A DNA stretch of 64,000 nucleotides from Peristeroidobacter agariperforans. Lineage in GTDB: Bacteria; Pseudomonadota; Gammaproteobacteria; Steroidobacterales; Steroidobacteraceae. The DNA is taken from positions 1,531,501 through 1,595,500 of the forward strand of contig NZ_RYFW01000002.1 in the NCBI RefSeq assembly GCF_004138335.1, given 5' to 3'. Both the position numbers and the translations under genes were made by a program. Of this stretch, positions 27,409 to 64,000 are shown in pieces. The notes under the pieces are model-generated. The model saw only the letters and a program-made list of their open reading frames with translations. It did no database searches and was not told the DNA's origin. How positions within the stretch are numbered: the stretch's first letter is position 1; every line of letters begins with the position of its first letter.

Positions 27409-28925
27409 GTGTCGAGAGTCCAGCGACACCAGGCGAGGCGGTATCCGCGGAAGGCGTTTATCCGCCTGCCCGGGCTTTGCTGAGGGTGGGCTGGATTGTG
27501 CTGATCGCTTTGGCGGTCGCACTGATCATGTGGCGCACCACCGCCACGCTGCTCCGCGAATGGAGCGACACTGACGATCTGACGTACACGCACGGGTATC
27601 TGATTCTGGCGATATCGGTGTGGGCGCTGTGGCGCTCTCGTGATTCGCTAGCCCGAGAGAACAGTGCGCCTGTCGCAGCGCTCATTCCGATCAGCCTGGT
27701 GCTGTCAGTCGCGTGGTTGATCACTTATCGAGCGGGACTGCTGGTGGTCTATCAGGCGCTGCTGCCGCTGGCCATGTGGGTGGCGGTATGGACCATCTGC
27801 GGATGGGGAGTGGCGCGCACCAGCCTGTTCGCTTTCGGTTTTCTTTACTTCGCAGTCCCGATATGGAGCCTCGCGAATTCGACGTTGCAGCACGCGACGA
27901 CGGCGGCGATGAAGGCGTTGCTGCCTCTGTTCGGCGTACCAACGTACTTCTCGGGCAACACAGTCTATATACCGGCCGGTGTCTTCGAGATCGCCGGAGG
28001 GTGCAGCGGCCTTCATTTCTTCATCGTTGGTACGGCCATCGCCACTTTATACGGCGAAGTCCACCGCGACTCACTGAAGACCCGAGCGATCTTCGTGCTG
28101 ATGGCAGCAGTGCTGGCTGTGCTGGCGAACTGGGTGCGTGTGTTCACCATCATCGTCGCGGGCCACCTCACGAACATGCAGCACTTTCTCATCCGTGTCG
28201 ATCATTACTACTTCGGCTGGGTGGTGTTCGCCGTCGCGATCGGATTGTTCCTGTATCTGGCTTCGAGAATGCCGCAGGGCCGGGCAGCGGACCCGATGAT
28301 CGAGCGAACCTCGCAGCCGCAGCCAGTTTCGCGGCGAGCCTGGCTCATCGCTGCCTGCACAGCAGTGGCTGTGGCGCTGGGGCCGTGGCAAGCGAGTCGA
28401 GTCTCGGCGGGGGCGCGAGAACCCGCATCGGTCCTGCCGACACTGACCGGATGGAATGGTCCTGACAACGCCGTGGGGGAGTGGCGCCCAAAGTTTCCGA
28501 GCGCCGACCAGTTGCTGTTGGGCAGCTACTCCGCAAATGGCCAGAGTGTCGATGTTTTCGTTGCTGCCTATCGGGAACAGCACCAGGGCAAGGAATTCGG
28601 TAGCCTCGGCAATTCGTCTCTCGGCGAAGGACTGGAGAGTCGATTACCCCGCCGCGCGTTGAGCGGAGGCATTGGCGAGCGCATCGTCATCGACGATCAG
28701 GGGACGCGGTGGATCCTGCGTGATACGTATGTCGTGGGCGAGCGGAATTTCTATGCCGCGAGTGTCGGGCAGCTCTGGTACGGGCTGACTGCACTGTGGC
28801 GGGATCAGAGGTCAGCGGCCCTCGGGGTGCGGGTCAAGTGCCAGGCGGAAAGCTGCGACGCGGCGCGCCTGGTTGCCGACGAATTCCTGTTGTCCTCGGG
28901 CGTTGTGCATGCCATCGCGCAATAA
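27405..28925 (+). CDS. xrtA: Exosortase A fused to an EpsI-type domain
   Basis: A 506-residue inner-membrane protein. The exosortase part (about 25-290) has some eight membrane helices with the catalytic set Cys200 (GGCSGLHFF), Arg245 (NWVRVF) and His267 (DHYYFGW). It would cut proteins at the PEP motif of PEP-CTERM tails and join them to an acceptor, as proposed for the family. The C-terminal part (about 310-506) is a single-anchor periplasmic EpsI-like domain, commonly fused or adjacent to XrtA. A matching PEP-CTERM substrate is encoded at 45689-46438. Confidence 0.95.
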   Translation: MSVESPATPGEAVSAEGVYPPARALLRVGWIVLIALAVALIMWRTTATLLREWSDTDDLTYTHGYLILAISVWALWRSRDSLARENSAPVAALIPISLVLSVAWLITYRAGLLVVYQALLPLAMWVAVWTICGWGVARTSLFAFGFLYFAVPIWSLANSTLQHATTAAMKALLPLFGVPTYFSGNTVYIPAGVFEIAGGCSGLHFFIVGTAIATLYGEVHRDSLKTRAIFVLMAAVLAVLANWVRVFTIIVAGHLTNMQHFLIRVDHYYFGWVVFAVAIGLFLYLASRMPQGRAADPMIERTSQPQPVSRRAWLIAACTAVAVALGPWQASRVSAGAREPASVLPTLTGWNGPDNAVGEWRPKFPSADQLLLGSYSANGQSVDVFVAAYREQHQGKEFGSLGNSSLGEGLESRLPRRALSGGIGERIVIDDQGTRWILRDTYVVGERNFYAASVGQLWYGLTALWRDQRSAALGVRVKCQAESCDAARLVADEFLLSSGVVHAIAQ

Positions 28926-28953
28926 GAGCGGCACCAGCCGCGGAGTAACCGCC

Positions 28954-31761
28954 ATGACGATCAGAATGGCTTGCTGTATCGCCGCCCTGCTAGCGCTGTC
29001 GGGCTGCGACGCTTTCGTTTCCAACGAGACAAGAATCGAGCGCGCCGAACAGCTGATTACATCCGGCGCACAGCGCGAAGCCGTCATCGAACTCAAGAAT
29101 GTCATCGACGATGAGCCGGCGAATGCCCGAGCGCTCACCTTGCTCGCGACGGCGATGTATCAGCTCGAGGATGTGCAGGGCGCCAAGACCGAATTGCAGC
29201 GTGCCATCGATGCCGGAGCGCCGCGCGAGGACCTGGCGGAGATCGAGGGAATGCTCATGATCTGGGCGCACCAGTTCAAGGAGCTGGAGCAGCGCCTTGA
29301 ATCGGGTTCCATCGTCGCGGATGACGAGTTGCGCAGTGTGCTCATCGCGCGCGCGAAGGTCGGGCAAGGCGATGCGGAAGGCGCAAAGAAGACGCTGAAC
29401 GATGCGCTTGCGCGCGAGCCTGATTCTGCCGAACTGATGAGAGCGCTTGCGGAAGTGCTCGCGGCAACGGGTGAGCGGGACTCGGCTCTCGATCTCTTGG
29501 AGAGACTGCTCGCAAAACATCCGCGGAATGCGCGTGCGCTGTTGAGCCAAGGGTCGCTGCTGGCGCAAATGAATGAGCTCGATGCGGCAGAGAAGTCCTA
29601 CACCGCGGCCTTGCAGTACGGGAACGCGACTCTCACTTTCCCCCAGCGAACCATGGCGGCCGCAGCACTGGTCGAGATCCAACTTGCGAAAGGCGATGTG
29701 CCGGGCGCCGAACGAGCCCACGGGGCGCTGACGGAACTGGCTCCAGACAGCTTCGTTTCGAGGCTGCTCGCGGCTCGTATATTGCTCTCGAAACAGGAAT
29801 ACCCAGCCGCCACGGCTGAGCTGCAACGCGTCGTGACACAAGCTCCGCAGTTCGTCGCTGCGCGCGCCTTGCTCGGCGCTTCGCTGTTTTCGCAGGGAAG
29901 TTTTGAACAGGCCGAACGCCAGTTGTCGGAAGCCGTGCGTCAGGCCCCAGAGAATATCGAGGCACGCAAGTTGCTGGCGCAGGTGCGCTTGCGCATGAAC
30001 AGGCCCGCGGAAGCCATGGATACCCTGGTACCCGCACTCGATGACGAAGCGACCGATGCCGGGCTCAACGTGCTCGCGAGCAACGTCCAGCTGCGCATGG
30101 GGGATGAGTCGGCAGCGGTGGCGCTGCTGGAGCGTTCTGTCGCAGCCAGCCCCGCCAATCGCGAACTGAAACTGCAGCTCGCGAGCGCGTATCTGCGCAC
30201 AGGTTACAGTGCGAAGGCAGTCGAGCTGCTCAAGCAAGTTGACGCAGCGGAGAACACTGTCGAGAAGGAAGCACTACTGGTTGCCGCGCTCGCCGAGTCG
30301 AAGGGCATGAGCGCCGCTCAGCAGGAAGTGCAGAGTCTGTTGCGCGCGCATCCTCGGAATGTCGCGATTCTCAATCTAGCCAGTGCATTCTTCATTCGTA
30401 GCGGAGAACTGCAGAGCGCGCGCGATGTGCTTGCGCGTGCCTCCAGTCTCGAGCCGAAGAACCGAGTGACGTTGACCAATTTGGCGCGCCTCGAGATTGC
30501 TGCCGGTAGAGTGGCCGCTGCAGAGGGAATTCTGAAACAGATTATCGAAGCCGATCCCGCCAATGCTCCGGCCCATCTCGAGCTCGCCGCATTAGCTATG
30601 CAGCAAGGCAAGACTCGCGAAGCTCTTGCCGGGCTCGAGCAACTCGCGAAGCGCGATCCCAAGTCGATCGAAGCGAGGCTGGCGCTGGCGCGCGTGCACC
30701 TCATCGACAAGAAGCCGGAGCTCGCCGCGAAGCAGGTCGCCGCTGCACTCGAGGTAGCGCCAGACAAGGGGGCGGTTCACAACGCAGCCGGCAGTCTCTA
30801 CATGCAGTTCGGGCGTATGGACGCGGCGCTGGCCGCATTCCGAGCCGCAGTAGCAGCCGATCCATCGAATGCTGCGTATCTCGTCAGTCAGGCTCAGGCG
30901 GAGACCGCGCTGGGCCAGACCGAAGCCGCACGCTCGACTGCTGGACGGGCACTGTTGGCCCAACCTTCCCACATTCCGGCAGTGGCCCTGAATGCGCTTC
31001 TGGACGTGCAGGCTCAACGCCCGGATGCGGCGCTGGGGCGCATCGAGGCGCTCAAGAAGCTCAGGCCATCCGATCCCGCAGTACTGGCACTGGAAGGCGA
31101 GGTGCTTCTCACTCTGAAACGCTATGAACGAGCGGCTGCGGTTCTCGAGCAAGCGGCGGCGGGCCGTGCGAGCTCGAGGCTGGCAGTGAAGCTGTACCAG
31201 GCCAGGCAGCTCGCGAAGCTGCCGAACTCGCTGCAGCCCCTGGAATCGTGGCTGGAGCGTTATCCCGGCGATTTGGCGGTCCGACGGCTGCTCGCTAACG
31301 CATATCAGCAGACCGGGCGCCGCGAGAAAGCAATGCTCGAATACGAGTTCCTGGCGGCTCAGGCTCCCGGCGATGTGATGTCGCTGAACAACCTGGCGTG
31401 GCTGCAGTACGAAGCAGGAGATGCCCGCGCCGCTCAGACCGGGGCGGCTGCGTATCAACTAGCTCCGAACAATCCAGCGATCGCGGATACGTACGGCTGG
31501 ATACTCTTGCACCGGGGTGACGTGCCCCGCGCAGTGGAAATATTGGCGGCGGCCGCGAAGAGTTCAGACGAACCCGAAATCCGATACCACTACGCCGCCG
31601 CCCTGGCGAAATCGGGAGATCGGGACCAGGCACGCGAGACTCTTACCGCCATTGTCGGCGGGCCGAAGTCTTTCGCGTCCCAGGCCGACGCCGAGCGTCT
31701 GCTGCGGGAGCTGGCCCGGCCAGCGTCTGGATCGGAGGGCGCTCCATCAGGCGGTCGGTAG
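28954..31761 (+). CDS. prsT: XrtA/PEP-CTERM system TPR lipoprotein PrsT
   Basis: A 935-residue lipoprotein (LALSGC, Cys18) made almost wholly of tetratricopeptide repeats, recognisable from phrases such as ALREPDSAELMRALAEVLAA spaced about every 34 residues. The start ATG at 28954 is chosen over earlier in-frame starts because it follows a CGGAG site and begins with the signal peptide. TPR lipoproteins of this size usually scaffold polysaccharide secretion across the periplasm, as AlgK and PelB do. PrsT is the standard partner in XrtA loci; its exact contacts are unknown. Confidence 0.93.
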   Translation: MTIRMACCIAALLALSGCDAFVSNETRIERAEQLITSGAQREAVIELKNVIDDEPANARALTLLATAMYQLEDVQGAKTELQRAIDAGAPREDLAEIEGMLMIWAHQFKELEQRLESGSIVADDELRSVLIARAKVGQGDAEGAKKTLNDALAREPDSAELMRALAEVLAATGERDSALDLLERLLAKHPRNARALLSQGSLLAQMNELDAAEKSYTAALQYGNATLTFPQRTMAAAALVEIQLAKGDVPGAERAHGALTELAPDSFVSRLLAARILLSKQEYPAATAELQRVVTQAPQFVAARALLGASLFSQGSFEQAERQLSEAVRQAPENIEARKLLAQVRLRMNRPAEAMDTLVPALDDEATDAGLNVLASNVQLRMGDESAAVALLERSVAASPANRELKLQLASAYLRTGYSAKAVELLKQVDAAENTVEKEALLVAALAESKGMSAAQQEVQSLLRAHPRNVAILNLASAFFIRSGELQSARDVLARASSLEPKNRVTLTNLARLEIAAGRVAAAEGILKQIIEADPANAPAHLELAALAMQQGKTREALAGLEQLAKRDPKSIEARLALARVHLIDKKPELAAKQVAAALEVAPDKGAVHNAAGSLYMQFGRMDAALAAFRAAVAADPSNAAYLVSQAQAETALGQTEAARSTAGRALLAQPSHIPAVALNALLDVQAQRPDAALGRIEALKKLRPSDPAVLALEGEVLLTLKRYERAAAVLEQAAAGRASSRLAVKLYQARQLAKLPNSLQPLESWLERYPGDLAVRRLLANAYQQTGRREKAMLEYEFLAAQAPGDVMSLNNLAWLQYEAGDARAAQTGAAAYQLAPNNPAIADTYGWILLHRGDVPRAVEILAAAAKSSDEPEIRYHYAAALAKSGDRDQARETLTAIVGGPKSFASQADAERLLRELARPASGSEGAPSGGR

Positions 31762-31911
31762 GACCTGTACAGGAGGGCAATGCTCGTGCATTCGGGCCGG
31801 TCTTGCTTCACAGTTCGAGATCCTGATTACGCTCGTCGCGCGCCGATTTGTTAACCTTGATCGCCGGCGGGTAGTGCAAGCGTCGGATTTATTTACGTTT
31901 CGGTAGACCCC

Positions 31912-32559
31912 ATGCGCATGATCCCGTTTCCAATGCTTGCAGTGGCTCTGGCATGGCTGTGTCAGAGCGCGACAGCGCTGAGTGCAGAGGGCGCCGTGGC
32001 CGAGCCGACCAAACCGGCCGCCGCTACAGCTCCGCCCCCCGCGGCTAAGCAGAGCGACAACGAATATCTGATCGGTCCGGGAGATTCGCTCCAGGTGTTC
32101 GTGTGGCGTAATCCGGAGCTATCGACCACCGTGCCGGTGCGACCGGACGGCAGGATCTCGACGCCGCTCGCCGAAGACGTCGTGGCGGTGGGCAAGACGC
32201 CTACCCAGCTTGCACGTGATATAGAGAAGGTGCTGGCCGACTACATCCGTTCTCCGCAAGTGAACGTGATTGTGAGCAATCCGGTCAGTACCTTCAGTCA
32301 GGTGAAGATCATCGGCCAGGTGACGACACCTCAGGCAGTGCCGTATCGCGAAGGGATGACCGTGCTCGACGCCGTGCTGGCAGTCGGGGGCCTTGCGGAA
32401 TTTGCTGCTGGCAACCGCGCAAAGATCATTCGGAATGAAAACGGCAAGCCCAAGGAGATCAAGATCAAACTGGATGATCTGGTCAACAAGGGCGATGTGA
32501 GGCAGAACCTCGCGCTGCGTCCGGGCGATGTGCTGGTCGTGCCCGAATCCATTTTCTAA
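31912..32559 (+). CDS. XrtA system polysaccharide export protein (Wza/EpsE-like)
   Basis: A 215-residue exported protein with a signal peptide (about 1-25), a Pro/Ala-rich linker, a poly-export domain (about 48-130; YLIGPGDSLQVFVWRNPELS) and a SLBB domain (about 135-210; VKIIGQVTTPQAVPYREGMT, LRPGDVLVVPESIF). It would form part of the outer-membrane export channel. No lipobox is visible, whereas classical Wza is a lipoprotein; the XrtA versions are often short like this one. A 150-bp gap to prsT suggests it may have its own promoter, but no consensus was recognised. Confidence 0.92.
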   Translation: MRMIPFPMLAVALAWLCQSATALSAEGAVAEPTKPAAATAPPPAAKQSDNEYLIGPGDSLQVFVWRNPELSTTVPVRPDGRISTPLAEDVVAVGKTPTQLARDIEKVLADYIRSPQVNVIVSNPVSTFSQVKIIGQVTTPQAVPYREGMTVLDAVLAVGGLAEFAAGNRAKIIRNENGKPKEIKIKLDDLVNKGDVRQNLALRPGDVLVVPESIF

Positions 32560-32571
32560 CGGATCGCTCCA

Positions 32572-34158
32572 ATGCTACCTGTCGTCGAACAAGTCCTGGA
32601 TCAGGTGCGCGATGCCTGGCGCTTTCGCTGGTACGCGATCGGCATCGCTTGGATCGTCTGCGTGGTCGGTTGGCTCGTAGTGCTCACGATGCCAGACGTT
32701 TATCAGGCAAAGGCCCGCATCTACGTCGATACGCGCACCGCGCTGACACAGACGGTCGAAGGCCTGGCCTTCGAGCAGAACATCGAGGCGCAGCTCAACT
32801 TCGTCCGTCAGAATCTGCTGGGTCGTCCCGCTTTGGAGCGAGTCGCCCGCGAGACGCAACTGGATCGCGGTGTGACGACCGCGCGAGAGCGCGAGGCACT
32901 AGTCGAAACGTTGCGTAAGCGGATCAACATTGAAACCGGCCCCACGCGACGCAACGCGACCGACAGCATCTACACGATCGCATACACGGACCACAGCCGG
33001 GCGAAGAGCCTGGAAGTTGTCGATCGGCTGCTGAACACTTTTGTCGAGGATACGCTCGGCGGCAAACGCGAAGGATCGGTCGAGGCGCAGCGATTCCTGG
33101 AGGCGCAGATTTCCGAATATGAAGCGCGACTCGCGGAAGCGGAAACACGCCTGGCTGATTTCAAGCGGAAAAACGTGGGATTGGTGCCAGGCGATCAGGG
33201 CGACTATTTCGCGCGCCTGCAAGCTGAAGTCGACAACTTGCGCAAGCTGAAAGAGCAATTGAGCATTGCGACTTCGCGGCGTGCGGAGCTGGCAACGCAG
33301 CTGCGCGGTGAGAGCGCTGTGCTTGCAGCATCCGCTGCACAGTCCAGCCGCGATGCGGCGGGCGGCGATACGGGTGGGCGACTGCAAGAGGCTCGGGCCC
33401 GCTTGGACGAATTGCTGCTGCGCTTCACCGACAAGCATCCAGACGTAATCGCTTTGCGTGAAACCATCGCGCAACTCGAAGAGCGGCAGAAGAACGAAAT
33501 TGCGGCGCTCCAGCGGGGCGACCTTCGGGCAGCGCTGGCTAGCGGTGTCGGCGCCAGCCCCGTCTACCAGCAGATCCAATTGCAGATCAATCAAACCGAC
33601 GTGGAGATCGCCGCTCTGCAGCGCCAGAGTGCTGACAGCGACAACCGCATCGCCGAACTGCGCAAGCTCGTCGATACCGTGCCTGAGGTCGAAGCCGAAT
33701 TCGCCCGCTTGAATCGCGATTACGACGTGACCAAGCAGGCGTACAACCGACTGGTCGACCGCTTGGAGAAGGCACGCATTTCCGAACAGGCCGAAGAGAC
33801 GGGCTCGGTGCGTTTCGAGATCATCGATCCGCCCGCGGCGCCGTTTGAGCCCGTGTCTCCGAAGCGCACAATGCTGCTGCTGGGAGTATTGGCGGCGGCC
33901 TTGGGCGCCGGGGCTGGTCTCGCGTACGTAATGAACATGCTGCGACCGGTGTTCAATACTTCGAAGTCGCTCGCCGAATTCACAGGCTTGCCGGTGCTTG
34001 GTGCAGTCAGCGTCACAGCACTCGAGCAACTTCAGCTGCAGAAGCGCATGAGCCTGATCCGGTTCTCGACGGCCGGTGCGTTGCTCGGGATAGCATTCCT
34101 GATGGTGCTGTTGCTGCAACAGCCGGGCACGCGCTTCATTCAACGTTTGATTGGATGA
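32572..34158 (+). CDS. XrtA system polysaccharide chain-length determinant (PCP family)
   Basis: A 528-residue inner-membrane protein. Transmembrane helices lie near the N-terminus (about 20-42), at about 435-457 and near the C-terminus. The periplasmic middle is long and largely coiled coil (about 180-400). The Wzz start sequence PDVYQAKARIYVDTRTALTQ and the Pro-rich PPAAPFEPVSPKR before the second helix are typical of polysaccharide co-polymerases. It would govern chain length with the kinase that follows 14 bases later. Confidence 0.93.
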   Translation: MLPVVEQVLDQVRDAWRFRWYAIGIAWIVCVVGWLVVLTMPDVYQAKARIYVDTRTALTQTVEGLAFEQNIEAQLNFVRQNLLGRPALERVARETQLDRGVTTAREREALVETLRKRINIETGPTRRNATDSIYTIAYTDHSRAKSLEVVDRLLNTFVEDTLGGKREGSVEAQRFLEAQISEYEARLAEAETRLADFKRKNVGLVPGDQGDYFARLQAEVDNLRKLKEQLSIATSRRAELATQLRGESAVLAASAAQSSRDAAGGDTGGRLQEARARLDELLLRFTDKHPDVIALRETIAQLEERQKNEIAALQRGDLRAALASGVGASPVYQQIQLQINQTDVEIAALQRQSADSDNRIAELRKLVDTVPEVEAEFARLNRDYDVTKQAYNRLVDRLEKARISEQAEETGSVRFEIIDPPAAPFEPVSPKRTMLLLGVLAAALGAGAGLAYVMNMLRPVFNTSKSLAEFTGLPVLGAVSVTALEQLQLQKRMSLIRFSTAGALLGIAFLMVLLLQQPGTRFIQRLIG

Positions 34159-45688: not shown

Positions 45689-46438
45689 TCAAGTTCTACG
45701 CCGGCGCGTACTGACGCCCAACCCGACAAGTCCGAGCAAGGCGAGTCCCAACGTACCGGGTTCAGGAATGTCGGTCTTGAATGCCAGGCGATCCAAGGTG
45801 GTAGGTTCGCTTTCCCCGCCGATCACCACGTACGCAATATCGGGATGGGAGTACTCGAGTAGCCAATACGAATAGTCGAACCCAAGATCCGGATGGGTGC
45901 CGACCGAACCATCAGCCGGGAAGGTGTCCTCGTAGCCGGTATGGATCAAGGCGCCGGTACTGTCGTATAGCCACCAGCGAAGCGGATCGTCGCCGCTCCC
46001 CCAGCCAGCGTCATCGAAGAGTTCCAGCCCAAGCAGGCTGACGTAGGTTGCAGGCTGTGCAAACGAAAGCAACAGTCCGGACGTTTCCTTGGCCCATTCT
46101 GCTGGATCAAAAGTGTCGACGTTGGCGTCGTTGATGTCCGGCCACGCAGACCATTCGGAGTTCTGGTCAGGTTGCCGAGAGAACACGTTCTTGCCGAAGG
46201 GGCCCGACGAAACAACTCCAGGCGGCAGCGATTGTGTGTCACCTGCAAGTGCGGATGAGAAAACCGAGGCGCCAGCTGTCGTTGTTATGGATACATGAGG
46301 CGAAACGTGAGACATGTCCGTGCCGGACGCAAAGTCGTCGGGGTCGACAGTAACGAGTAGCGCGTTGGCGGGTTGAAACGAGCCGGCGAGAAGCGCCAGC
46401 GTAGCGAGCCGAATGGCGTAATGTTTTGCGCGATCCAT
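45689..46438 (-). CDS. PEP-CTERM sorting-signal protein (exosortase substrate)
   Basis: A 249-residue exported protein with a signal peptide (about 1-26, ending ANA). The C-terminus is a complete PEP-CTERM signal: a PEPGT motif at about 225-229, a hydrophobic helix (LGLALLGLVGLGV) and a final Arg cluster (RRRRT). Exosortase A, encoded in this window, should cleave at PEP. The body is acidic and rich in Gly, Trp and Asp, like a beta-sandwich (FDDAGWGSGDDPLRWWLYDS), with no catalytic motif seen. It is on the opposite strand to its neighbours and has its own transcript. Confidence 0.93.
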   Translation of the reverse strand: MDRAKHYAIRLATLALLAGSFQPANALLVTVDPDDFASGTDMSHVSPHVSITTTAGASVFSSALAGDTQSLPPGVVSSGPFGKNVFSRQPDQNSEWSAWPDINDANVDTFDPAEWAKETSGLLLSFAQPATYVSLLGLELFDDAGWGSGDDPLRWWLYDSTGALIHTGYEDTFPADGSVGTHPDLGFDYSYWLLEYSHPDIAYVVIGGESEPTTLDRLAFKTDIPEPGTLGLALLGLVGLGVSTRRRRT

Positions 46439-51292: not shown

Positions 51293-52198
51293 ATGTCGAC
51301 CCCCACGGTTCCCACCCTGATGTACCACCACGTGTCGCCGCTCGATGGCGGGCACTGTGTGCATCCGGACCGTCTTCGGGAGCAGCTGGCGTGGTTGCGC
51401 AAGGAGCAGATTCAGATCCTGACCGGCACCCAGTTCAGGCGCTTCTGCACGGGCGAGTGGCGGCCTGCCGGTCGCGCAGTCGTGTTGACGTTCGACGATG
51501 GTTGGCTCGACAACTGGGTTTACGCGCTGCCGGTCTTGCGGGAGTTTGCTGCGCCAGCCGTTTTTTTTGTGGTGACCTCCTGGCCGGGAGCAGGTCAGCC
51601 CCGCCTGGACCTCAATCCTGACAACTGGCCTGGCTTCGGCCATGCCGAATGCATGAAGAGGTCGGCTAGCGAGAGCCAGCGTGACGATGTCGTCATGCGC
51701 TGGAGCGAGTTGCGCGCGGCCCAGGACACCGGTTTGGTCGAGCTGCAGTCGCACTCTCATTCGCACGGCGGATGGTGGGCCGGAGTAAGCGCATCGAGAG
51801 GATCCCTGGATTCCGTGGCGAGCGACCTTTTGCGCTCGCGAGACAGGCTGCAGTCGGAGCTTGGTGTAGTAGCGGATCAGTTGTGTTGGCCGCGAGGCGA
51901 GTTCACCGGGGCAATGCAGAAGGCTGCCCGGGAGTTGGGTTTCCAGGTGCAGCACTCCACGTTGCGAGGCGCGAACGAATGGGGAACGTCGCCGACTCGG
52001 GTCGTGCGCCGTCTGCACATCGAGAATCGGCCGCTGGACTGGTTCGTGTCCCGTATCGAGCTCTATAGCCGATCGTGGCGGGCGGCCGCTCTAGGCTGGT
52101 GCCATCAAGAGCTGCAGCGCGTTCGTATGCGTCGTCGTCACCCTGGGGTCTGGAATCAGCATGGCGGGCTTGGGGCCCATTGGTGGCGCCTTGTCTGA
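51293..52198 (+). CDS. Polysaccharide deacetylase family protein (third copy)
   Basis: A 301-residue NodB-fold enzyme with PTLMYHHVSPLDGGH at the N-terminus, catalytic VVLTFDDGWLDNW (Asp68, Asp69) and metal-binding ELQSHSHSHGG. The C-terminal third ends HRENRPLDW-like sequence (HIENRPLDWFVSRIELYSRS). There is no signal peptide. Its last 38 bases overlap the next gene in another frame, so the two are translationally coupled. Confidence 0.9.
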   Translation: MSTPTVPTLMYHHVSPLDGGHCVHPDRLREQLAWLRKEQIQILTGTQFRRFCTGEWRPAGRAVVLTFDDGWLDNWVYALPVLREFAAPAVFFVVTSWPGAGQPRLDLNPDNWPGFGHAECMKRSASESQRDDVVMRWSELRAAQDTGLVELQSHSHSHGGWWAGVSASRGSLDSVASDLLRSRDRLQSELGVVADQLCWPRGEFTGAMQKAARELGFQVQHSTLRGANEWGTSPTRVVRRLHIENRPLDWFVSRIELYSRSWRAAALGWCHQELQRVRMRRRHPGVWNQHGGLGAHWWRLV

Positions 52199-53897
52199 CG
52201 TCCGTGTCGTGCTCGCGTATCTGACGGATCGCAGTTCGCAGACAGCGGACGATCCTTGTCAATCCAAATCGCGCCCGGATTTTCTGGCGGCGGTGCCCAA
52301 CAGCGTGGAATGGGTCGTGCGCTCCGACCAGGATGATTCCGCAACGTCATTGGCGCCTTCGCACTGCGACCCTGCCGGTGCGCTCTTTTGGCGCGCAATA
52401 CCGCGTTCCGCGGAGCGTGGACTTCCGGACATCGCAGACGCAGCGCAGGCTTTCACCATTGCGCAGCTCGCCACTAGTGGCTCGAATCCCTTGGACGCCG
52501 CGGATGTTCGGCGAAAGATCTGCGCGCCCCTAGCTCAACGGGGTGCCGACGCAGTTGTCGTGTCATTGAGCGCAAGCTCGAGCATTACGAAGACTTTCCT
52601 GGAAGCAGGCTTTCGCATTCTCGGCACCGAAAGTCGGGGTCGAGTATTGCCTCGGGTGCCGCTGGCAAGCGTCGTTGCTGGGCCGTTGCGTCCGGCGATC
52701 GTACTGGGCCGACCGAATCCCAATATGCTGGCGCAGCTTCGCGCGCTGGGCCGTTCCGGTATTCCCGTGTATTGCATCGTCGTGCGCGGCGAGCCTGCAT
52801 TCATTGCGAAGGTGTCGAAATACGCGACTGGCGTTTTCGATCTGAGGCGAGGCGGCGACCGAGATGTGGTCCGTGCGATCCGCGAGATTGCGCAGGCGTC
52901 GGGCTCACGACCGATCCTGTTCTATGGCGGTGATCTCGATATCACCTTGACCGCGAGGATCTGGAGCTCGATCGCCGATTGCGTCACGCCGGTTAGCGAT
53001 CCGCATCGGGCTGAAGTGCTGAATGCGAAAACCGAACAGTGCGCGCGCGTCGAGGCGGCGGGCATCCGCGTTCCTCGAGGTGGCGGCATCAGAAACCTCC
53101 AGGATCTCGAACATCTTTGTACTACGCTGACCTTTCCGGTGATCTGCCGCCCCGTCGAAATCGCTTCGCGCGGCGGATTTGCGGACAAGATCATCATTGC
53201 TCAGACGCCGGAGGAGATGCGGTCGCGATTGCACGGCCTTGCGTCCGAAGGCAAGTCGTGGGTCCTGGCGCAGGAGTTCATCCCGGGGCCGGATGATTCG
53301 TTGCTGTTCGCGCTCGGAACCTGCAACGCGGCAGGGAAGGTCACGTCCATCGTTACTGGACGAAAGCTTTGCCAATATCCGGCCGGGCTCATGTGTCGCG
53401 GTGAGGCGTTCGAGAATGCCGAATTGCGCGGCCTTGCAACGGCCGCGTTCGAGGCATTGGGCGTCGAAGGGGTGCTCGGAGTCGAGTTCAAACGTCACGC
53501 CCTTTCCGGCGAGCTGTACTATATCGAGGTCAATTTCCGGCCCGAAAACATCATTGCCGTGACGGAAGCATCGGGAGTCAATGTACTTCTGATCGGGTAT
53601 CTGCAGGCTGCGGGACTCGGCACTCTGGTGGTTCCCATGCGCATGCGGCCGGCGCTGTGGCGCGATCTGTCGATGGAACTGCTCGGCTGGCTGAGCCGGC
53701 GGTTTGCCTGGAGTAAGGGGCTGCGTACGAACGTGCGCCGCCGTCACGTGGGTGCATTGTGGGCCAGCGACGATCCATGGCCGGCCCTGGCGTGGCACAT
53801 GTCCAAGGTCACGAGGCTTGCGTTGAAGATGACTGCGGTTCTCAAGAGCGCCGTCGGCGGCGAATCCGGTATCAGGAGCGGACGCGCGGTCCGGTAG
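52161..53897 (+). CDS. ATP-grasp ligase (carboxylate-amine ligase type)
   Basis: A 578-residue protein. The first about 160 residues match nothing I recognise. From about 170 there is an ATP-grasp ligase: a pre-grasp region (PAIVLGRPNPNMLAQLRALG, RPILFYGGDLDIT), then FPVICRPVEIASRGGFADKI, WVLAQEFIPGPDDSLLF and the metal-binding YYIEVNFRPEN. The C-terminal 80 residues are basic. Such enzymes couple an amino acid or other acid to an amine using ATP. The start overlaps the deacetylase gene by 38 bases; an in-frame GTG a little downstream is possible. Confidence 0.82.
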   Translation: MAGLGPIGGALSDVRVVLAYLTDRSSQTADDPCQSKSRPDFLAAVPNSVEWVVRSDQDDSATSLAPSHCDPAGALFWRAIPRSAERGLPDIADAAQAFTIAQLATSGSNPLDAADVRRKICAPLAQRGADAVVVSLSASSSITKTFLEAGFRILGTESRGRVLPRVPLASVVAGPLRPAIVLGRPNPNMLAQLRALGRSGIPVYCIVVRGEPAFIAKVSKYATGVFDLRRGGDRDVVRAIREIAQASGSRPILFYGGDLDITLTARIWSSIADCVTPVSDPHRAEVLNAKTEQCARVEAAGIRVPRGGGIRNLQDLEHLCTTLTFPVICRPVEIASRGGFADKIIIAQTPEEMRSRLHGLASEGKSWVLAQEFIPGPDDSLLFALGTCNAAGKVTSIVTGRKLCQYPAGLMCRGEAFENAELRGLATAAFEALGVEGVLGVEFKRHALSGELYYIEVNFRPENIIAVTEASGVNVLLIGYLQAAGLGTLVVPMRMRPALWRDLSMELLGWLSRRFAWSKGLRTNVRRRHVGALWASDDPWPALAWHMSKVTRLALKMTAVLKSAVGGESGIRSGRAVR

Positions 53898-57186: not shown

Positions 57187-59169
57187 ATGTGCGGTATTGC
57201 GGGTGTTCTCAGAGCCAGCGGATTTCGTAATGAGGCGGAGCTGGCCGCTCTGCGGCAGATGGCCGCCCGTATCGCGCACCGGGGACCGGACGACGCAGGT
57301 GTTTGGACCGATCCGGACGCCGGCATCGGCCTCGCTCATCGCCGCCTGTCGATTCTCGACCTGTCGGCGCTCGGCCATCAGCCCATGGTGTCGGCGTCGG
57401 GCCGCTATGTCATCAGTTACAACGGCGAGATATACAACTTCGGCGAGCTGCGTGCGGAGCTGATCGCGCTTGGCCAGAGCTTCAAGGGCCATTCGGATAC
57501 CGAGGTGATGCTCGGCGCCATCGACGCCTGGGGGCCGGAATCGGCCATCAGGCGCGCGACAGGGATGTTTGCCATCGCGCTGTGGGATCGTAAGGAGCGC
57601 GCGCTGACGCTGGCTCGCGATCGGCTGGGCGAAAAGCCTGTGTACTACGCAGTCTGCGGTAACGTCTTGCTGTTCGGTTCGGAGTTGAAGGCGTTGCGTG
57701 CTCATCCCGCATGGCGTGGACAGATCGATCGGCGTGGGCTGGCGCTACTGCTTAAGCACAATTACATCCCGGCGCCGCACACGATCTACGACACAGCCCG
57801 GAAGCTTGCTCCCGGTTGCATGCTCAAGGTGACCTTGAGTGGCGAGCGGCTCTCTCTGCACGAATCGTTCTATTGGGACGCGAAGTCCGCAGTCGCCGAG
57901 GCGGTGAGCCATCGCCTGCTCACCGCCGAAGAAGCGATCGACGAAACAGAGCGGGCGATCCGTCTCGCTGTGGAGAAGCAACTGGTTGCCGACGTGCCCG
58001 TCGGAGCGTTCTTGTCCGGAGGGATCGATTCCTCGCTCATCGTGGCGAACATGCAGAAGTGCAGCGCGCTGCCCACCCGCACCTTCACGATCGGCTTCGA
58101 GGAAGAACAGTTCAACGAGGCTCCCTTCGCGCGGGAGATCGCCACTCATCTGGGCACACAACACACAGAACTGATACTGACGCCCCGAGACATTCTGCAG
58201 ACCGTGCCGCGGATCACCGAGATCTATGACGAGCCATTCGCAGATTCATCTCAGCTACCAACGTTCCTGGTGTCCCAGCTCGCACGGCAATCCGTGACCG
58301 TTTCGTTGTCGGGTGACGGCGGCGACGAGCTGTTCGCCGGTTACGACAGATTCAGTCATGCACTCGCACGCTGGAAGTCCGTGCAAGCGATGCCTCGCAG
58401 CGTGAGGGCCGCGGCTGCCGGCGCGATCGACAGCCTGTCCGAGGAGTCGCTCGACGCTATCCTGCAAGGGCTGGCGACCGTGGTGCCGTCGTGGCGGAAA
58501 AAGCGGGCACTTCCGAGCAGATTGCGGACGAATGCCCGGTTCTGGCGCGCCAGAAGTGTCGACGACATTTTTGAAGAGCTGATTTCCTATTGGAGCTCGC
58601 CGCCGGTGAACGGCATTGCCGCCGATTGGCCGCAGCGGGTGGTTACCCCGGCCGGGCTCGACGACATGCAGCGCATGATGTTTACCGACATGTGCCGTTA
58701 TCTGCCGGATGACATTCTCGTGAAAGTCGACCGGGCGGCAATGGCTGTGAGCCTGGAAACGCGAGTGCCATTACTCGATCCGAAAGTCGTCGAGACCGCG
58801 TGGCGCATTCCCACAGCGATCCACAGGCGTGATGGCCGTGGCAAATGGGTTCTGCGGCAGCTGCTGGCGCGCCATGTGCCGGAGGCTCTGTTCGATCGAC
58901 CGAAGCGCGGTTTCGCCGTGCCGATTCCTCAGTGGTTGCGTACCGACCTGCGAGACTGGGCCGAGGATCTGCTGGATACGAAGGCAATCGCCGCCGGAGG
59001 CTACTTCGATCCATCGATCATAGAAAAGCGCTGGCGGGAGCATCTCAGAGGCGACATGGACTGGTCGTTCCACCTTTGGGGAGTCCTGATGTTCCAGGCC
59101 TGGCAACGTACGCAGGAGTCAGACGCGTCGGAGTTTGCAGACGCGCCGCGCGTTGCCTCAGCAGGCTAG
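57187..59169 (+). CDS. XrtA/PEP-CTERM system amidotransferase (asparagine synthase, glutamine-hydrolysing)
   Basis: A 660-residue AsnB-type enzyme. Catalytic Cys2 (MCGIAGVL) and the glutaminase signature RIAHRGPDDAGVW are present. The synthetase half has the pyrophosphate loop FLSGGIDSSLIV and LSGDGGDELFAGYDRF. In exosortase A loci a conserved paralogue of this family is always present and is thought to amidate a sugar acid or peptide of the polysaccharide, not to make asparagine. The downstream GNAT gene starts 11 bases after it. Confidence 0.93.
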   Translation: MCGIAGVLRASGFRNEAELAALRQMAARIAHRGPDDAGVWTDPDAGIGLAHRRLSILDLSALGHQPMVSASGRYVISYNGEIYNFGELRAELIALGQSFKGHSDTEVMLGAIDAWGPESAIRRATGMFAIALWDRKERALTLARDRLGEKPVYYAVCGNVLLFGSELKALRAHPAWRGQIDRRGLALLLKHNYIPAPHTIYDTARKLAPGCMLKVTLSGERLSLHESFYWDAKSAVAEAVSHRLLTAEEAIDETERAIRLAVEKQLVADVPVGAFLSGGIDSSLIVANMQKCSALPTRTFTIGFEEEQFNEAPFAREIATHLGTQHTELILTPRDILQTVPRITEIYDEPFADSSQLPTFLVSQLARQSVTVSLSGDGGDELFAGYDRFSHALARWKSVQAMPRSVRAAAAGAIDSLSEESLDAILQGLATVVPSWRKKRALPSRLRTNARFWRARSVDDIFEELISYWSSPPVNGIAADWPQRVVTPAGLDDMQRMMFTDMCRYLPDDILVKVDRAAMAVSLETRVPLLDPKVVETAWRIPTAIHRRDGRGKWVLRQLLARHVPEALFDRPKRGFAVPIPQWLRTDLRDWAEDLLDTKAIAAGGYFDPSIIEKRWREHLRGDMDWSFHLWGVLMFQAWQRTQESDASEFADAPRVASAG

Positions 59170-59179
59170 TCGAGCTGGA

Positions 59180-61294
59180 ATGCGCATCGAATGCGTGGAG
59201 CGCGTGAGTCCGGCAGAGAAGCACGCGATCATCGAGCTTCTTGGAACGGGCGACTTCAAATCCACTCTCTGGGACTGGCAATTCCATCGTCAGGTGGGCG
59301 AGCGTCGACGGATTCTCATCGTCGCGTACGACGACGACGGCCAGGTCGTCGGCTTCAACGGCTCCCTTCCCATTTCGGTCAAGCTGAACGGCTCATCCAG
59401 CAGTGCGCTATGGAGCTGTGACTTCATCGTCTCGGCCGCCAGTCGCGGCAAGGGTATCGGCCACATGCTGAAGCAGGATCTATTGACGCGCGCTGATTCC
59501 GTGATGGCCCTCGGCCTGAGCTCCACTGCCGATCGCGTGCACGCCAGCATGGGCTGGAAGCGTGGCCCGAGCGTCGGGAGCTTCACGCGTCTGAACGACA
59601 TGCGCAGTCTGCGCTCTGCGATCAAGGTCGGTTTGCAGCATCTGCAGTCCTTTTGGCTGCGAGCGCGCCCCAGCGGATCCGCCCGGCAGCGCTTTACTGC
59701 GTCCGTTACCAGCATTCGCACGCTAGGAGAGGAGGTCGAGCAGCTCTGGGAGGCTGTTCGCACGGGCTACGAAAACGTCGTGGTGCGCGACTGGACGTAT
59801 GTTAATTGGAGATACGCAGAGCACCCGATGGCCGACTACAGGGCGATCTGCGTGCGCGATGCCGAGCATCGGCTGCGCGCGATGGGAATCTTCTGGATGT
59901 CCAGTCGTCGTGCTGTGCTGGTCGACTACATCGGACCGCGGGCGGGCGCTGCAGAGAAGCAGGCAATCGTGCTTCGCTTTCTGAAGGAATGTCGATCCGC
60001 ACCTTTGCTGGAATGCTCTACCACGGATAGCGAACTACAACATTCCCTCGCCAAGTACGGCTTCGTGAACTGGCGGAATCGGGCTGCGGCTTTCAACTAC
60101 TACGATCCGCACGCGCGCAGCGACGGTGGTGAGTGGTTCCTCATGGGCGGCGATTCGGACGGCGACATGCTGGAAGCAGGGCGCAGTGCCGATGAGTTTC
60201 GCGTCGAGCGGTGGGATGAATCGATGTTTGCCCGTGCAAGGAACGAGTGGACTGATCTGCTCAACCGCTCGACGGCAGATCGATTGTTCCTCAGCTGGGA
60301 ATGGCTGCACACATGGTGGCAAACCTTCGGCGGGGCACATGGGCTGGAGCTGCGGATTCTTGCGGTTCGGGAGCGGTCGGGACGACTGGTCGGCGTGGCG
60401 CCGCTATACCTGCACCGCGCGACCCAACGTAACTTTGCGTCGCGACGCATGCAGTTCATCGGCAACATCTGGCGTGGTGCGGCTACCATGCGCACGGAAT
60501 ATCTGGAGTTCGTTCTCGACACTGCGTCCGCGGCCGAAGTGGCGCGCGTACTTTGCAACAGCCTCATTGCCGATCGCTCGTGGGATGACTTGGTGCTCAC
60601 CGATCTGCCGCTGGAGTGCGCGACACGCAAGGCCGTCGAAAGCAGCCAGGTCATGCAGCATTGCTATTTGCGAGTCGCAGATAGCTACACCGGTTACGGT
60701 ATCGACACGTCGGGAGTCTTCGATGAATACGTGAGTCGACTGAGCGCGAGTCGGCGACGAAAGCTGTTCGTGCAGCGGCGCAAGCTCGAAAAGCAGGGGG
60801 CGGTTGTGCTCGAAACACTGCCGCCGCAGGATTTCGAAGGGTTCGCCGCGCGACTCGATCGACTTCATCGCTGCAGGTGGGGCAAGGATTTCTTCGTCGG
60901 GCGCATTCGTCGATTCCACGCGGCTCTGCTTGCCGGGCTGCCGCCGGGAGCCAGCGCGCATCTTTCCGTGATGACGCTGAATGGCATGGATGTCTCAGCG
61001 GCCTACAATGTCCGCGTCGGGACGCGCGAGTACAACCTCCAGGGTGGCTTCGATGAGCAGGCAGTGCCGAGCGTCTCGCTAGGCCTGGTTCACACGGGGT
61101 ATCTGATCGAGCAGGCGTTTCGCGAAGGAATCGAATGCCTGGATCTGCTGGTTGGCGGGGGCAAGCAGCACGACTTCAAGGCGCGTATTGCGGACGCAGT
61201 CCGCAGGACTGCCACGCTGCATGTTGTAAGAGCGCCGTTGTTGCAGGCGGGGTTCAGACTGAACGACGCCATGAAGCGTCAGGGTGCGCGCTGA
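59180..61294 (+). CDS. Fusion of two GNAT-type acyltransferase domains (second CelD/BcsL-like)
   Basis: A 704-residue cytoplasmic protein. The first half (about 1-330) has a GNAT core with CDFIVSAASRGKGIGHMLKQ and LGLSSTADRVHASMGWKRGP. The second half (about 345-704) opens with LFLSWEWLHTWWQTFG, has RRRKLFVQRRKLEKQG and ends with YNVRVGTREYNLQGGFDE, the form of CelD/BcsL and FemAB-like acyltransferases. XrtA loci often contain a FemAB-like protein in this position; here it is fused behind an extra GNAT domain. The ATG at 59180 is preferred to the frame opening at 59135, which overlaps the previous gene. Confidence 0.85.
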   Translation: MRIECVERVSPAEKHAIIELLGTGDFKSTLWDWQFHRQVGERRRILIVAYDDDGQVVGFNGSLPISVKLNGSSSSALWSCDFIVSAASRGKGIGHMLKQDLLTRADSVMALGLSSTADRVHASMGWKRGPSVGSFTRLNDMRSLRSAIKVGLQHLQSFWLRARPSGSARQRFTASVTSIRTLGEEVEQLWEAVRTGYENVVVRDWTYVNWRYAEHPMADYRAICVRDAEHRLRAMGIFWMSSRRAVLVDYIGPRAGAAEKQAIVLRFLKECRSAPLLECSTTDSELQHSLAKYGFVNWRNRAAAFNYYDPHARSDGGEWFLMGGDSDGDMLEAGRSADEFRVERWDESMFARARNEWTDLLNRSTADRLFLSWEWLHTWWQTFGGAHGLELRILAVRERSGRLVGVAPLYLHRATQRNFASRRMQFIGNIWRGAATMRTEYLEFVLDTASAAEVARVLCNSLIADRSWDDLVLTDLPLECATRKAVESSQVMQHCYLRVADSYTGYGIDTSGVFDEYVSRLSASRRRKLFVQRRKLEKQGAVVLETLPPQDFEGFAARLDRLHRCRWGKDFFVGRIRRFHAALLAGLPPGASAHLSVMTLNGMDVSAAYNVRVGTREYNLQGGFDEQAVPSVSLGLVHTGYLIEQAFREGIECLDLLVGGGKQHDFKARIADAVRRTATLHVVRAPLLQAGFRLNDAMKRQGAR

Positions 61295-61387: not shown

Positions 61388-64000
61388 CTACGGCTTACAA
61401 GGATCGCTGCCGTAGTAGTACTCCTCCAGATCCGTCAGTCCGTCGTTGTCCTGGTCTTCGTTGCCGGGCAGCGAGCCGCCTGACATGTCGTGCGGGCTGC
61501 GCTCGTCTTCCCATGGGTTCAAGCAAGTGCTGAAGACTTCGAACTTGTCGGGCATGCCGTCATTGTCCGTGTCGCGCAGACGCGGGTTCGTCATGTGATC
61601 GAGAACTTCTGCGGCGTCGTCGAGGCCGTCTTTGTCCTTGTCTTCGCCCGCCTTGACGACCCAGTAGCGCCATGCGCGCTTGCCGCCACGATTGCCTTCG
61701 GCGTCGCGCACTTTTCGGCCGTTGAACCGCACCTGGAGCACGCGCTCGTCGCTAGCCTGGAAGCCGCTGAACACGTACGGGCCGGCGCCACTGCCTTTGA
61801 CTTCCGTTGCGGGCGAACCGTTGACGGTCAGCGCATCGGCTGTCATCCCGAAGACCGGCACGCTGAACGTCACCGTTACAGCAGGCAGCTCCGTTACGAA
61901 CGGGCGGGTGCGGAACGGTGCTTCGTAAATGACACGAGGACCGCGCGCTGCGCGTCCGCGCTGAGGCGCGACTACTGAGTCTGGTTGCTCTTCGGTGAGC
62001 AAGGTGACGTTCGGACCCGCCGTAGCAGCGGCAGGAGCGTGGTGCTGATGCCCGTGCACGTGCTGTTCAGAGGTTTCCGTATCGTCGGCGATCTCTGCGG
62101 GCAAGGCCTGAGCGGTGAGATGCTGATGCTCTGCCGGCTGGTTCGCTGCCACGATTTCTCGCGTTGCCGCTTCATTTGCAACGAGGCGAGTCTCCTGTGT
62201 CGGGATGGCGCGCATCGCGCTGCCACCGCCACCGCCGGCGAGCCAATCCTGAGAAATCAGATCCATGTATTCGTGCCAGCGCCAGAAGACAGGATCGACC
62301 GGTGCGCCGGCGGTCGTCGCCATGTCGCCGCCGATACGGTTGTGCACGTTGCTGTGCATCGGCAGGTTCACCGCGCAACCCAAAGCATCGCGGTCCGGGA
62401 AGTCGAGCAGATCATTCTGGCCGCCCCCGGTTTCGCACGCTGTGCCATTGCTCGGGCGCGCTGTTGCACCACCGGCCAGCGTGAAGTAGCTCGGTCGCGG
62501 TGTCAGAACATACGTGCCGAGACGATTGGCGTGGTTCACGTCGGCGCCGGTGGGCAGCGGGGTACCTGGATCCCAGGGGACGACCAGCGGATAACCGAAC
62601 TCCTGACGCCAGTTGTTGAAGCGATCCACGAACTCGCGATGGAAGTCGAACAGCGTGCTGCCGTAGTTCGGCACACCTGGCATCCAGTCGCGGTGCCATG
62701 CGCTGTGATCGTTGCGTACGCGGCCTCTATTACCAGCACCCGGGTGATTGCTGGTGTAGAAGTCTTCCGCTTGTCTTCCGATGTTCGTCGAGTTGCGTTC
62801 GACACTGACGATGATCTGAGCCGAGCAGCTCGCACCGCCGGCCTGAACGTTTACGGACACCGTACGGTCGGCAGGCCCGCTGTTCTGGGGGTGACGCTGG
62901 CTCGCCAGCGGCTTCCAGTAGAAGTCGAGCTGCTGCGTCTGGAAGTTCGCCGGCGTCATTGCCGTGGCCGACCACGGCTGCGCCGTGCTTTCCTGATAGT
63001 CGCGAATGATGTCACCCGATACCGTCCACTGATAGGCGATCGGGGTGCCGCCGCCAGTGACATTCGCGGTGTAGACAGCGCGCTGTCCAACGTTCATGAC
63101 CGCAGCACCACCGGTGATCGACACGGTGCAGACGCCGCCCGCGCTAAGCGTTGTAGCGTTCACAGCGGCAGATTGCGCGGACTCATTGGCGGGGACGGCG
63201 TTGTCACGCGCGGAGACTCGGTAGCTGTACGTCGTGCTCGGCGCCCGACCTGAGTCGACGAACGTTGCCGTTGGCGAAGTGCCGACCTGTACGCCATCGC
63301 GGAACACGCGATAGCCGGCAAGCCCAGAGCCGCCGGTATCCGTCGACGCCTGCCACGACAGGGATACGGTGCTCGCGGTGGTGCTCGTGACCTGGAGGTT
63401 TTGAGGCACGCTCGGTGCAATTGTATCCACCGGAGCCGAGGTGGTTGTCCCAGTAACCGGGCCGGCAGGCGCGGACTCGTTCGCCGGCGAGGCGTTGTCG
63501 AACGCCACGACGGTATAGCTGTGCGATGTGTTCTGTGCGCGGCCGGAGTCCGTGAAGTTGGTGCTGCCGGTCGAGCCGATGGGGGCAACTCCGCTGTCGC
63601 GGAAGATGCGATAGCCAGCCAGCCCAGATCCACCCGTATCCGTTGAGGCCGACCAGCCGAGCGAAATCGAGGAGGAAGTGGTGCCAGTGACCGAGAGATT
63701 TTGAGGTGTCGTCGGCGCGGTCACATCGGCCGCGGGGCCGGTCGACACCGTGAGATTCACCGTCGTGCCGGTCGCAACGCTAGCGCCTGCGATCGGAGTC
63801 TGACTGATCACCGACCCGCTGGGCACTGAAGCACTGCTCTGTGAGGTGATGGTTCCGACGACCAGGCCTGCGGCTGTGATATTCGACTGGGCGGTGCTCT
63901 GCGTCTGGCCGACGACATTCGGTGTGAGGACGGTGGCAGCACCCGAACCGCTGACCCGGACGTTGTCGAACTCAGCAGTCGATACGGATCCGTCCAGACG
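61388..64000 (-). CDS. Large surface protein with PASTA, fibronectin III, tyrosinase-like and Ca-binding repeats (start beyond the window)
   Basis: The frame is open to the edge, giving 870 visible residues; the true start lies outside. Order of parts: PASTA-type segment (about 25-90; VVGQTQSTAQSNI, VSQTP-like VISQTPIAGASV), two fibronectin III domains (about 93-190 and 193-285), an Ig-like region (about 290-400), then a tyrosinase-type copper domain (about 410-590). CuB is clear: MHSNVHNRIGGDM (His549, His553) and DPVFWRWHEYMD (His576). CuA has His454 in LFDFHREFVDRF, with His432 and His436 before it, less regular than usual. A His-rich linker (EQHVHGHQHHAP) and three DxDxDG thrombospondin-type repeats end the protein. 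It may be an extracellular phenol-oxidising or copper-binding protein. Confidence 0.8.
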   Translation of the reverse strand, partial: RLDGSVSTAEFDNVRVSGSGAATVLTPNVVGQTQSTAQSNITAAGLVVGTITSQSSASVPSGSVISQTPIAGASVATGTTVNLTVSTGPAADVTAPTTPQNLSVTGTTSSSISLGWSASTDTGGSGLAGYRIFRDSGVAPIGSTGSTNFTDSGRAQNTSHSYTVVAFDNASPANESAPAGPVTGTTTSAPVDTIAPSVPQNLQVTSTTASTVSLSWQASTDTGGSGLAGYRVFRDGVQVGTSPTATFVDSGRAPSTTYSYRVSARDNAVPANESAQSAAVNATTLSAGGVCTVSITGGAAVMNVGQRAVYTANVTGGGTPIAYQWTVSGDIIRDYQESTAQPWSATAMTPANFQTQQLDFYWKPLASQRHPQNSGPADRTVSVNVQAGGASCSAQIIVSVERNSTNIGRQAEDFYTSNHPGAGNRGRVRNDHSAWHRDWMPGVPNYGSTLFDFHREFVDRFNNWRQEFGYPLVVPWDPGTPLPTGADVNHANRLGTYVLTPRPSYFTLAGGATARPSNGTACETGGGQNDLLDFPDRDALGCAVNLPMHSNVHNRIGGDMATTAGAPVDPVFWRWHEYMDLISQDWLAGGGGGSAMRAIPTQETRLVANEAATREIVAANQPAEHQHLTAQALPAEIADDTETSEQHVHGHQHHAPAAATAGPNVTLLTEEQPDSVVAPQRGRAARGPRVIYEAPFRTRPFVTELPAVTVTFSVPVFGMTADALTVNGSPATEVKGSGAGPYVFSGFQASDERVLQVRFNGRKVRDAEGNRGGKRAWRYWVVKAGEDKDKDGLDDAAEVLDHMTNPRLRDTDNDGMPDKFEVFSTCLNPWEDERSPHDMSGGSLPGNEDQDNDGLTDLEEYYYGSDPCKP

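Follow-up and report, generated by a model that had tools for sequence, protein, structure and literature searches.

The tyrosinase-like gene and its surroundings

The window, that is, the whole 64,000-nucleotide stretch of Peristeroidobacter agariperforans DNA that was analysed, carries an XrtA/PEP-CTERM exopolysaccharide locus at 23891-34158 and, at its far end, part of a gene encoding a large protein with a tyrosinase-like domain. The relevant genes of the window are as follows:

23891-26050, PrsK, above the NCBIfam cut-off
26047-27408, PEP-CTERM response regulator, above the NCBIfam cut-off
27405-28925, exosortase A, above the NCBIfam cut-off
31912-34158, export and chain-length proteins, each above the NCBIfam cut-off
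57187-59169 (+), asparagine-synthase/XrtA-type amidotransferase, 566.6 bits with the XrtA model, below its cut-off of 816.9
59135-61294 (+), acetyltransferase-like protein with two acetyltransferase-like halves (Pfam)
61388-64000 (-), C-terminal 870 aa of the 1422-aa tyrosinase-like protein; the gene runs on to the equivalent of position 65656

Of two genes for PEP-CTERM proteins at or near the exopolysaccharide locus, one lies at 45689-46438 (-) and the other just outside the window; the stretch 52161-53897 gave no match to Pfam at E 1e-5.

The presence of an open frame at 61388-64000 was verified. The original prediction had called for its N-terminus to be sought by extension of the sequence, and reading of the neighbouring DNA placed the ATG outside the window. 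The complete ORF is L003:2389-6657 (-), where L003 denotes the extended DNA around the window gene in the 7.65-Mb source assembly. Pfam matches in the full protein comprised two PASTA (106.9 bits), three fn3, two DUF1349, one Tyrosinase (PF00264) and two TSP3_bac domains. The features that lie within the window, all on the minus strand, are as follows:

63737-63931 (-), second PASTA domain, about aa 576-640 (Pfam PF03793, borders rounded)
63137-63736 (-), two fn3 domains, about aa 641-840 (Pfam PF00041, borders rounded)
62810-63136 (-), Ig-like domain, aa 841-949, with C843 and C944 (alignment)
62207-62809 (-), tyrosinase-like core, aa 950-1150 (PF00264 and CuA-to-CuB profile match)
62639-62707 (-), rearranged CuA, H984-x3-H988-x17-H1006 (alignments)
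62273-62356 (-), CuB, H1101-x3-H1105-x22-H1128 (alignments)
62039-62128 (-), His-rich linker, aa 1177-1206 (His enrichment)
61652-61936 (-), Big-type Ig-like domain, about aa 1241-1335 (alignment with the relative L011)
61391-61651 (-), C-terminal TSP3-type repeats, putatively Ca-binding (PF18884)

PF00264, PASTA, fn3 and TSP3_bac all exceeded their cut-offs, which bears out the earlier description of a tyrosinase-family domain within an adhesin-like multidomain PASTA/fn3 protein, as well as the repeats of putative Ca-binding function. Residues 1 to about 26 resemble a signal peptide as judged by eye, and the protein is probably secreted. Display on the cell surface had also been proposed; no anchor was found by the Pfam scan of the full protein, and this part of the prediction was not sustained. 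The PEP-CTERM motif PF07589 was absent from the protein at E up to 0.1, and its C-terminus reads GSDPCKP. No tandem repeats were found in the gene.

The tyrosinase-like gene and the gene at 59135-61294 converge, and the PEP-CTERM gene just outside the window, L003:7031-7783 (+), is divergently oriented with respect to the tyrosinase-like gene. Two relatives of the protein were found, L009 in genome G012 of the same genus and L011 in genome G086. The gene of L009 is flanked on one side by ORFs with PEP-CTERM-like ends (1609-2151 and 2410-2973) and on the other by FemAB/ATP-grasp-like and amidotransferase-like ORFs, similar to the neighbours in the window (all judged by eye); a sigma-54-type regulator lies beyond the neighbours, as in L003. 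One of the ORFs of this region, L009:7845-10214 (-), 789 aa, seems by eye to be an ATP-grasp-like front fused to a FemAB-like back. The nearest neighbours in G086 resemble modA and a PfkB kinase (by eye), and no exosortase was detected in this 93%-complete genome, whereas 11 of the 15 genomes in the same search had one. The predicted adjacency to exopolysaccharide genes therefore holds for two genomes of one genus and not for the whole family, because the third member sits elsewhere.

A link of the gene to PrsK/PrsR through a sigma-54 promoter was considered and rejected. In a scan with a -24/-12 consensus and up to two mismatches, L003 had 5 sites (5.88 expected) and the window 13 (19.67 expected), neither above chance, and none fell in the upstream gap of the gene, L003:6658-7030. 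L009 had 9 sites against 4.07 expected, a number reached in 1 of 200 shuffles; none of them lay on the strand of the gene in the interval that separates its start from the upstream ORF. Three sites with two mismatches each, L003:7129-7144 (+), L009:3032-3047 (-) and L009:2211-2226 (-), lie about 55-75 bases before PEP-CTERM ORFs (the start in L003 by eye).

Family membership and distribution

The PF00264 search that had been proposed as a check gave matches above the curated cut-off of 22.6 bits in all three proteins: 36.5 bits at aa 1093-1139 of the full protein (37.4 bits for the window part alone) and 43.7 and 37.0 bits in the two relatives. Most of the Pfam match falls in the CuB half, at profile positions 172-212 in the window protein and 152-208 and 152-212 in the relatives. 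An alignment from CuA to CuB was obtained with a profile built from 22 ordinary tyrosinases, which overlap the 19 ordinary rows of alignment A4 described below; the best domains found by HMMER scored 43.7-46.4 bits. HHalign against the same profile gave 98.4% probability over 155 columns, and both programs placed H988 on the first CuA ligand, HA1. The protein is the only PF00264 match in its genome. When a two-sequence family profile was compared with solved structures, mostly bacterial tyrosinases ranked first, followed by weaker matches, over the CuB half only, to molluscan and arthropod hemocyanins and prophenoloxidases. In a tree with 19 ordinary tyrosinases the family is an outlier, on a branch of 2.94 changes per column with support of 100/100. 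When the window protein and L009 were compared in 12 segments, the tyrosinase-like core showed the highest likeness, at 83.1% against 72.9% overall; dN/dS is rough, with dS near or past saturation.

A protein was counted as a family member when the match extended over the whole unit (216- or 328-aa query); the remaining matches, at about 20-40 bits, extended little if at all beyond the CuB half. The samples of genomes overlap, so that the counts must not be summed. Among the 60 nearest genomes, 3 had a match, the members being the window protein and that of G012; the same two were the only members in 396 genomes of the order (5 with a match). The 369 genomes of the class (5 with a match) added one new member, that of G086, which is 55% identical, and 398 genomes of the phylum (10 with a match) yielded the window protein as their only member. 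Of the two genomes of the order of G086, only G086 itself matched. In 190 genomes of another class, 6 had CuB-half matches, none in the family by match extent (for L059-L063, by extent alone). A PF00264 search of 339 genomes of the class matched 17, including those of the window and G086 with partial, weak matches. The non-family matches L007, L008, L012-L024, L028 and L029 are ordinary tyrosinases according to inspection of their sequences. Within the genus the gene was present in 2 of 14 genomes, the window genome and one of G001-G013. No relatives were found on the plasmids (DNA and protein) and viral contigs searched. One contig scan used exact 8-residue patterns of one protein and thus reached close relatives only.

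L009 is close to the window protein, at 82% over the 216-aa unit. The L011 protein, of 512 aa, consists of a hydrophobic N-terminus, the Ig-like domain, the tyrosinase core, a Big-like domain and TSP3 repeats; this smaller protein indicates that the conserved unit is the Ig-like domain, tyrosinase core, Big-like domain and TSP3 repeats. The front part with DUF1349, PASTA and fn3 domains was confined to the two members from a single genus. The Ig-like domain before the core is common to all three members in the alignment and appears as strands in a low-confidence model; on its own it matched no Pfam family at E 10, and in L011 Ig_3 scored 15.2 bits (cut-off, 30). Likewise, Big_12 scored 22.8 bits in L011, below its cut-off of 27, and the window protein had no Pfam match in that region. 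Literature searches found nothing on this protein family; in the retrieved text of PMC7293339, the one paper found with both "PEP-CTERM" and "tyrosinase," the latter is mentioned solely as an enzyme whose inhibition was assayed.

Copper ligands compared with known layouts

Alignment A4 consists of the three family rows and 19 ordinary tyrosinases, all 19 from one phylum (proteobacterial). Of 32 loci examined, 24 gave a CuA-CuB pair by pattern, and L008, L033, L036, L047 and L048 were dropped by choice. Among the 13 unused loci, 11 have a His in the loop before HA3 (by eye); L040 and L041 yielded no CuA string.

Five of the six canonical ligands, HA1 (H988), HA3 (H1006) and HB1 to HB3 (H1101, H1105 and H1128), are His in 22 of 22 rows. 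The CuB pattern H-x3-H...H is intact in all three family rows and all 19 ordinary rows. The HA2 loop His is present in 19/19 ordinary rows (9-12 residues before HA3 in 17 of them and 15-22 before in the remaining 2) but in 0/3 family rows. The HA1-HA3 loop has a length of 17 in the family, the same as in the ordinary tyrosinases L031 and L034; nine residues before HA3 these two have His, and the family has N, N and G (N997 in the window protein, at the place of HA2 in most ordinary rows). Conversely, H984, four residues before HA1, is His in 3/3 family rows and in 0/19 ordinary rows. All eight core His are invariant across the three family rows; they include H971 and H1042, with an aligned His in 0/19 and 1/19 ordinary tyrosinases, respectively. 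The CuA site had been described as looking degenerate. This is correct in that the usual loop ligand is gone, but all three members share H984, H988 and H1006, indicating a site that is rearranged rather than simply degenerate.

Other positions around the site have also changed. The seventh His, immediately before HB3, is His in 19/19 ordinary rows and Trp in 3/3 family rows. At HB1+1, Asn or Asp occurs in 16/19 ordinary rows and in none of the family rows, which have Ser, Ser and Gly. A Glu 3-10 residues before HB1 is found in 15/19 ordinary rows and 0/3 family rows. Residues like the HB1+1 Asn/Asp and the Glu before HB1 are tied to monophenolase activity in the consulted part of PMC10526336.

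A Cys pair at aa 1074 and 1094 (window 62375-62437) is invariant in the three members and encloses a TGGGQ motif; it is possibly a family-specific disulfide in the core.

The predicted His-rich strip was found to be enriched in the window protein, whose best 40-aa stretch has 7 His (reached in 5/2000 shuffles). In L009 the best stretch has 8 His (0/2000 shuffles); the linker differs from that of the window protein in sequence and length, and His richness is kept. L011 is not enriched (4 His, reached in 1237/2000 shuffles), and its C-terminus reads HSHTHSMDMGQ. The linker may help in copper loading.

Two AlphaFold models (pLDDT, 44.3 and 55.6; pTM, 0.35 and 0.57) were both weak and were used for helix limits only. 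In both, H984 and H988 share one predicted helix and H1006 is in the next (helices 142-153 and 161-183 in the A2 model; 30-45 and 51-70 in the A4 model). In a Foldseek search with the A4 model, 11 of the 18 solved structures listed were type-3 copper proteins, with a best E of 0.064 and none at E 0.001 or better; these matches are partly circular, because the alignment behind the second model consisted mostly of tyrosinases.

Type-3 copper proteins are regarded as deeply split by the layout of CuA, which has a loop His in tyrosinases, catechol oxidases and molluscan hemocyanins and the H-x3-H pattern in arthropod proteins. The tyrosinase of Verrucomicrobium spinosum is described with CuA H80, H86 (on the loop) and H95 and CuB H258, H262 and H284 (PMC10526336), and mosquito PPO8, a prophenoloxidase, with CuA H223, H227 and H252 and CuB H379, H383 and H419 (PMC4700666). 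According to the part of PMC4700666 consulted, arthropod hemocyanins and prophenoloxidases lack the free seventh His that precedes the sixth ligand. In the part of PMC3658974 consulted, the bacterial genomes examined have the alpha subclass only, and the arthropod proteins are placed in the beta subclass.

Bacterial tyrosinases (for example, those of Bacillus megaterium, Streptomyces castaneoglobisporus and V. spinosum) are the best copper-protein matches of the family, both by sequence and in the weak fold search, and share with it HA1, HA3, HB1 to HB3 and a predicted helix bundle. Unlike them, the family lacks the HA2 loop His, has an extra His at HA1-4, has Trp for the seventh His and lacks Asn/Asp at HB1+1, and the core of the window protein is part of a 1422-aa multidomain protein. 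With H984 and H988, the CuA of all three members can be read as H-x3-H...H and the seventh His is lacking, as in arthropod prophenoloxidases and hemocyanins; the spacing from the second to the third CuA His is 25 in mosquito PPO8 versus 18 in the window protein. No Pfam hemocyanin family matched the family at E up to 10, a search in which the HMMER filters drop most matches above 0.1. Since, in addition, the sequence is closer to tyrosinases, the arthropod likeness is one of layout and not of membership. From its sequence, the family thus seems to carry the arthropod CuA pattern in a tyrosinase-family protein.

Possible states of the CuA site and their implications

The reading that we favour, at about even confidence, is that the protein is secreted, is associated with the matrix and belongs to the type-3 copper proteins, that one of its CuA ligands has been relocated and that it acts as a diphenol oxidase rather than as a true tyrosinase. 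The tyrosinase-family core would retain a normal CuB site, and in CuA a His one turn of helix ahead of HA1 would take the place of the HA2 loop ligand, giving both copper sites the H-x3-H...H pattern of arthropod prophenoloxidase. The relocation reading draws on three sequences, two of them close. The DUF1349, PASTA, fn3 and Ig-like modules would hold the protein in the exopolysaccharide matrix. Because the monophenolase-linked positions are missing, oxygen binding and the oxidation of o-diphenols (catechols) would be expected over tyrosine hydroxylation.

An alternative is that CuA is dead, HA2 having been lost without replacement. Metal binding would then be left to CuB, perhaps together with the His-rich linker, and the domain would serve an adhesin as a copper-binding or structural element without catalysis. 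The missing HA2 in all three members, the missing second-shell residues and the long branch to the ordinary tyrosinases would all agree with this. When any CuA His of a plant relative was replaced, a single Cu remained and diphenolase activity was lost, according to the part of PMC4364613 consulted, and a half-built CuA would likewise be dead. In a dead site, however, conservation of HA1 and HA3 would be expected to decay; instead, H984, H988 and H1006 are retained without exception, even in the 55%-identical member, and no other segment of the protein is as alike as the core. Plain degeneration of CuA is therefore ranked below ligand relocation and appears rather unlikely, though it is the foremost of the alternatives. 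It is more doubtful still that CuA is completed by H971 or H1042 in place of HA2, with H984 having a structural role. Both residues are invariant in the family and nearly confined to it in A4, but in the models they fall outside the four His-bearing helices, in stretches of low confidence, and the layout with H984, a single turn of helix away from H988, is one already known in nature. That the domain is not a type-3 copper protein, its CuB match being due to chance or scaffold likeness, is very improbable. The Pfam match spans just 41 of 214 profile positions; against this, three proteins score above the PF00264 cut-off, the alignment to the profile of ordinary tyrosinases runs from CuA to CuB and keeps five canonical ligands in register, and the solved-structure matches span type-3 copper proteins. 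On the first two of these grounds a chance profile match was rejected.

If the ligand has indeed been relocated, a bacterial protein of tyrosinase lineage may have arrived independently at the arthropod CuA layout, in a matrix protein of an XrtA/PEP-CTERM exopolysaccharide system; we consider this broader proposal plausible but tentative, its chance lying a little short of even. Relocation would suggest that one CuA layout could turn into the other and would offer a natural experiment on the role of the flexible HA2 ligand. The protein would also be a candidate copper oxidase for PEP-CTERM exopolysaccharide matrices. The new element would be the relocated CuA ligand, within the known type-3 copper proteins and the tyrosinase lineage.

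Long tyrosinase frames of 888-1046 aa were also encountered: L008/L067 (G012), L038 (G080), L039 (G227), L045 (G093) and L068 (G004). Those of L008/L067, L038, L039 and L045 are bacterial ORFs of 888-1028 aa with a tyrosinase domain, as in the family; L008, L038, L039 and L045 differ from it in having an ordinary CuA with the loop His and a C-terminal region that is von Willebrand A-like (by eye). Genome G012 holds both a family member and the ordinary long tyrosinase ORF L008/L067.
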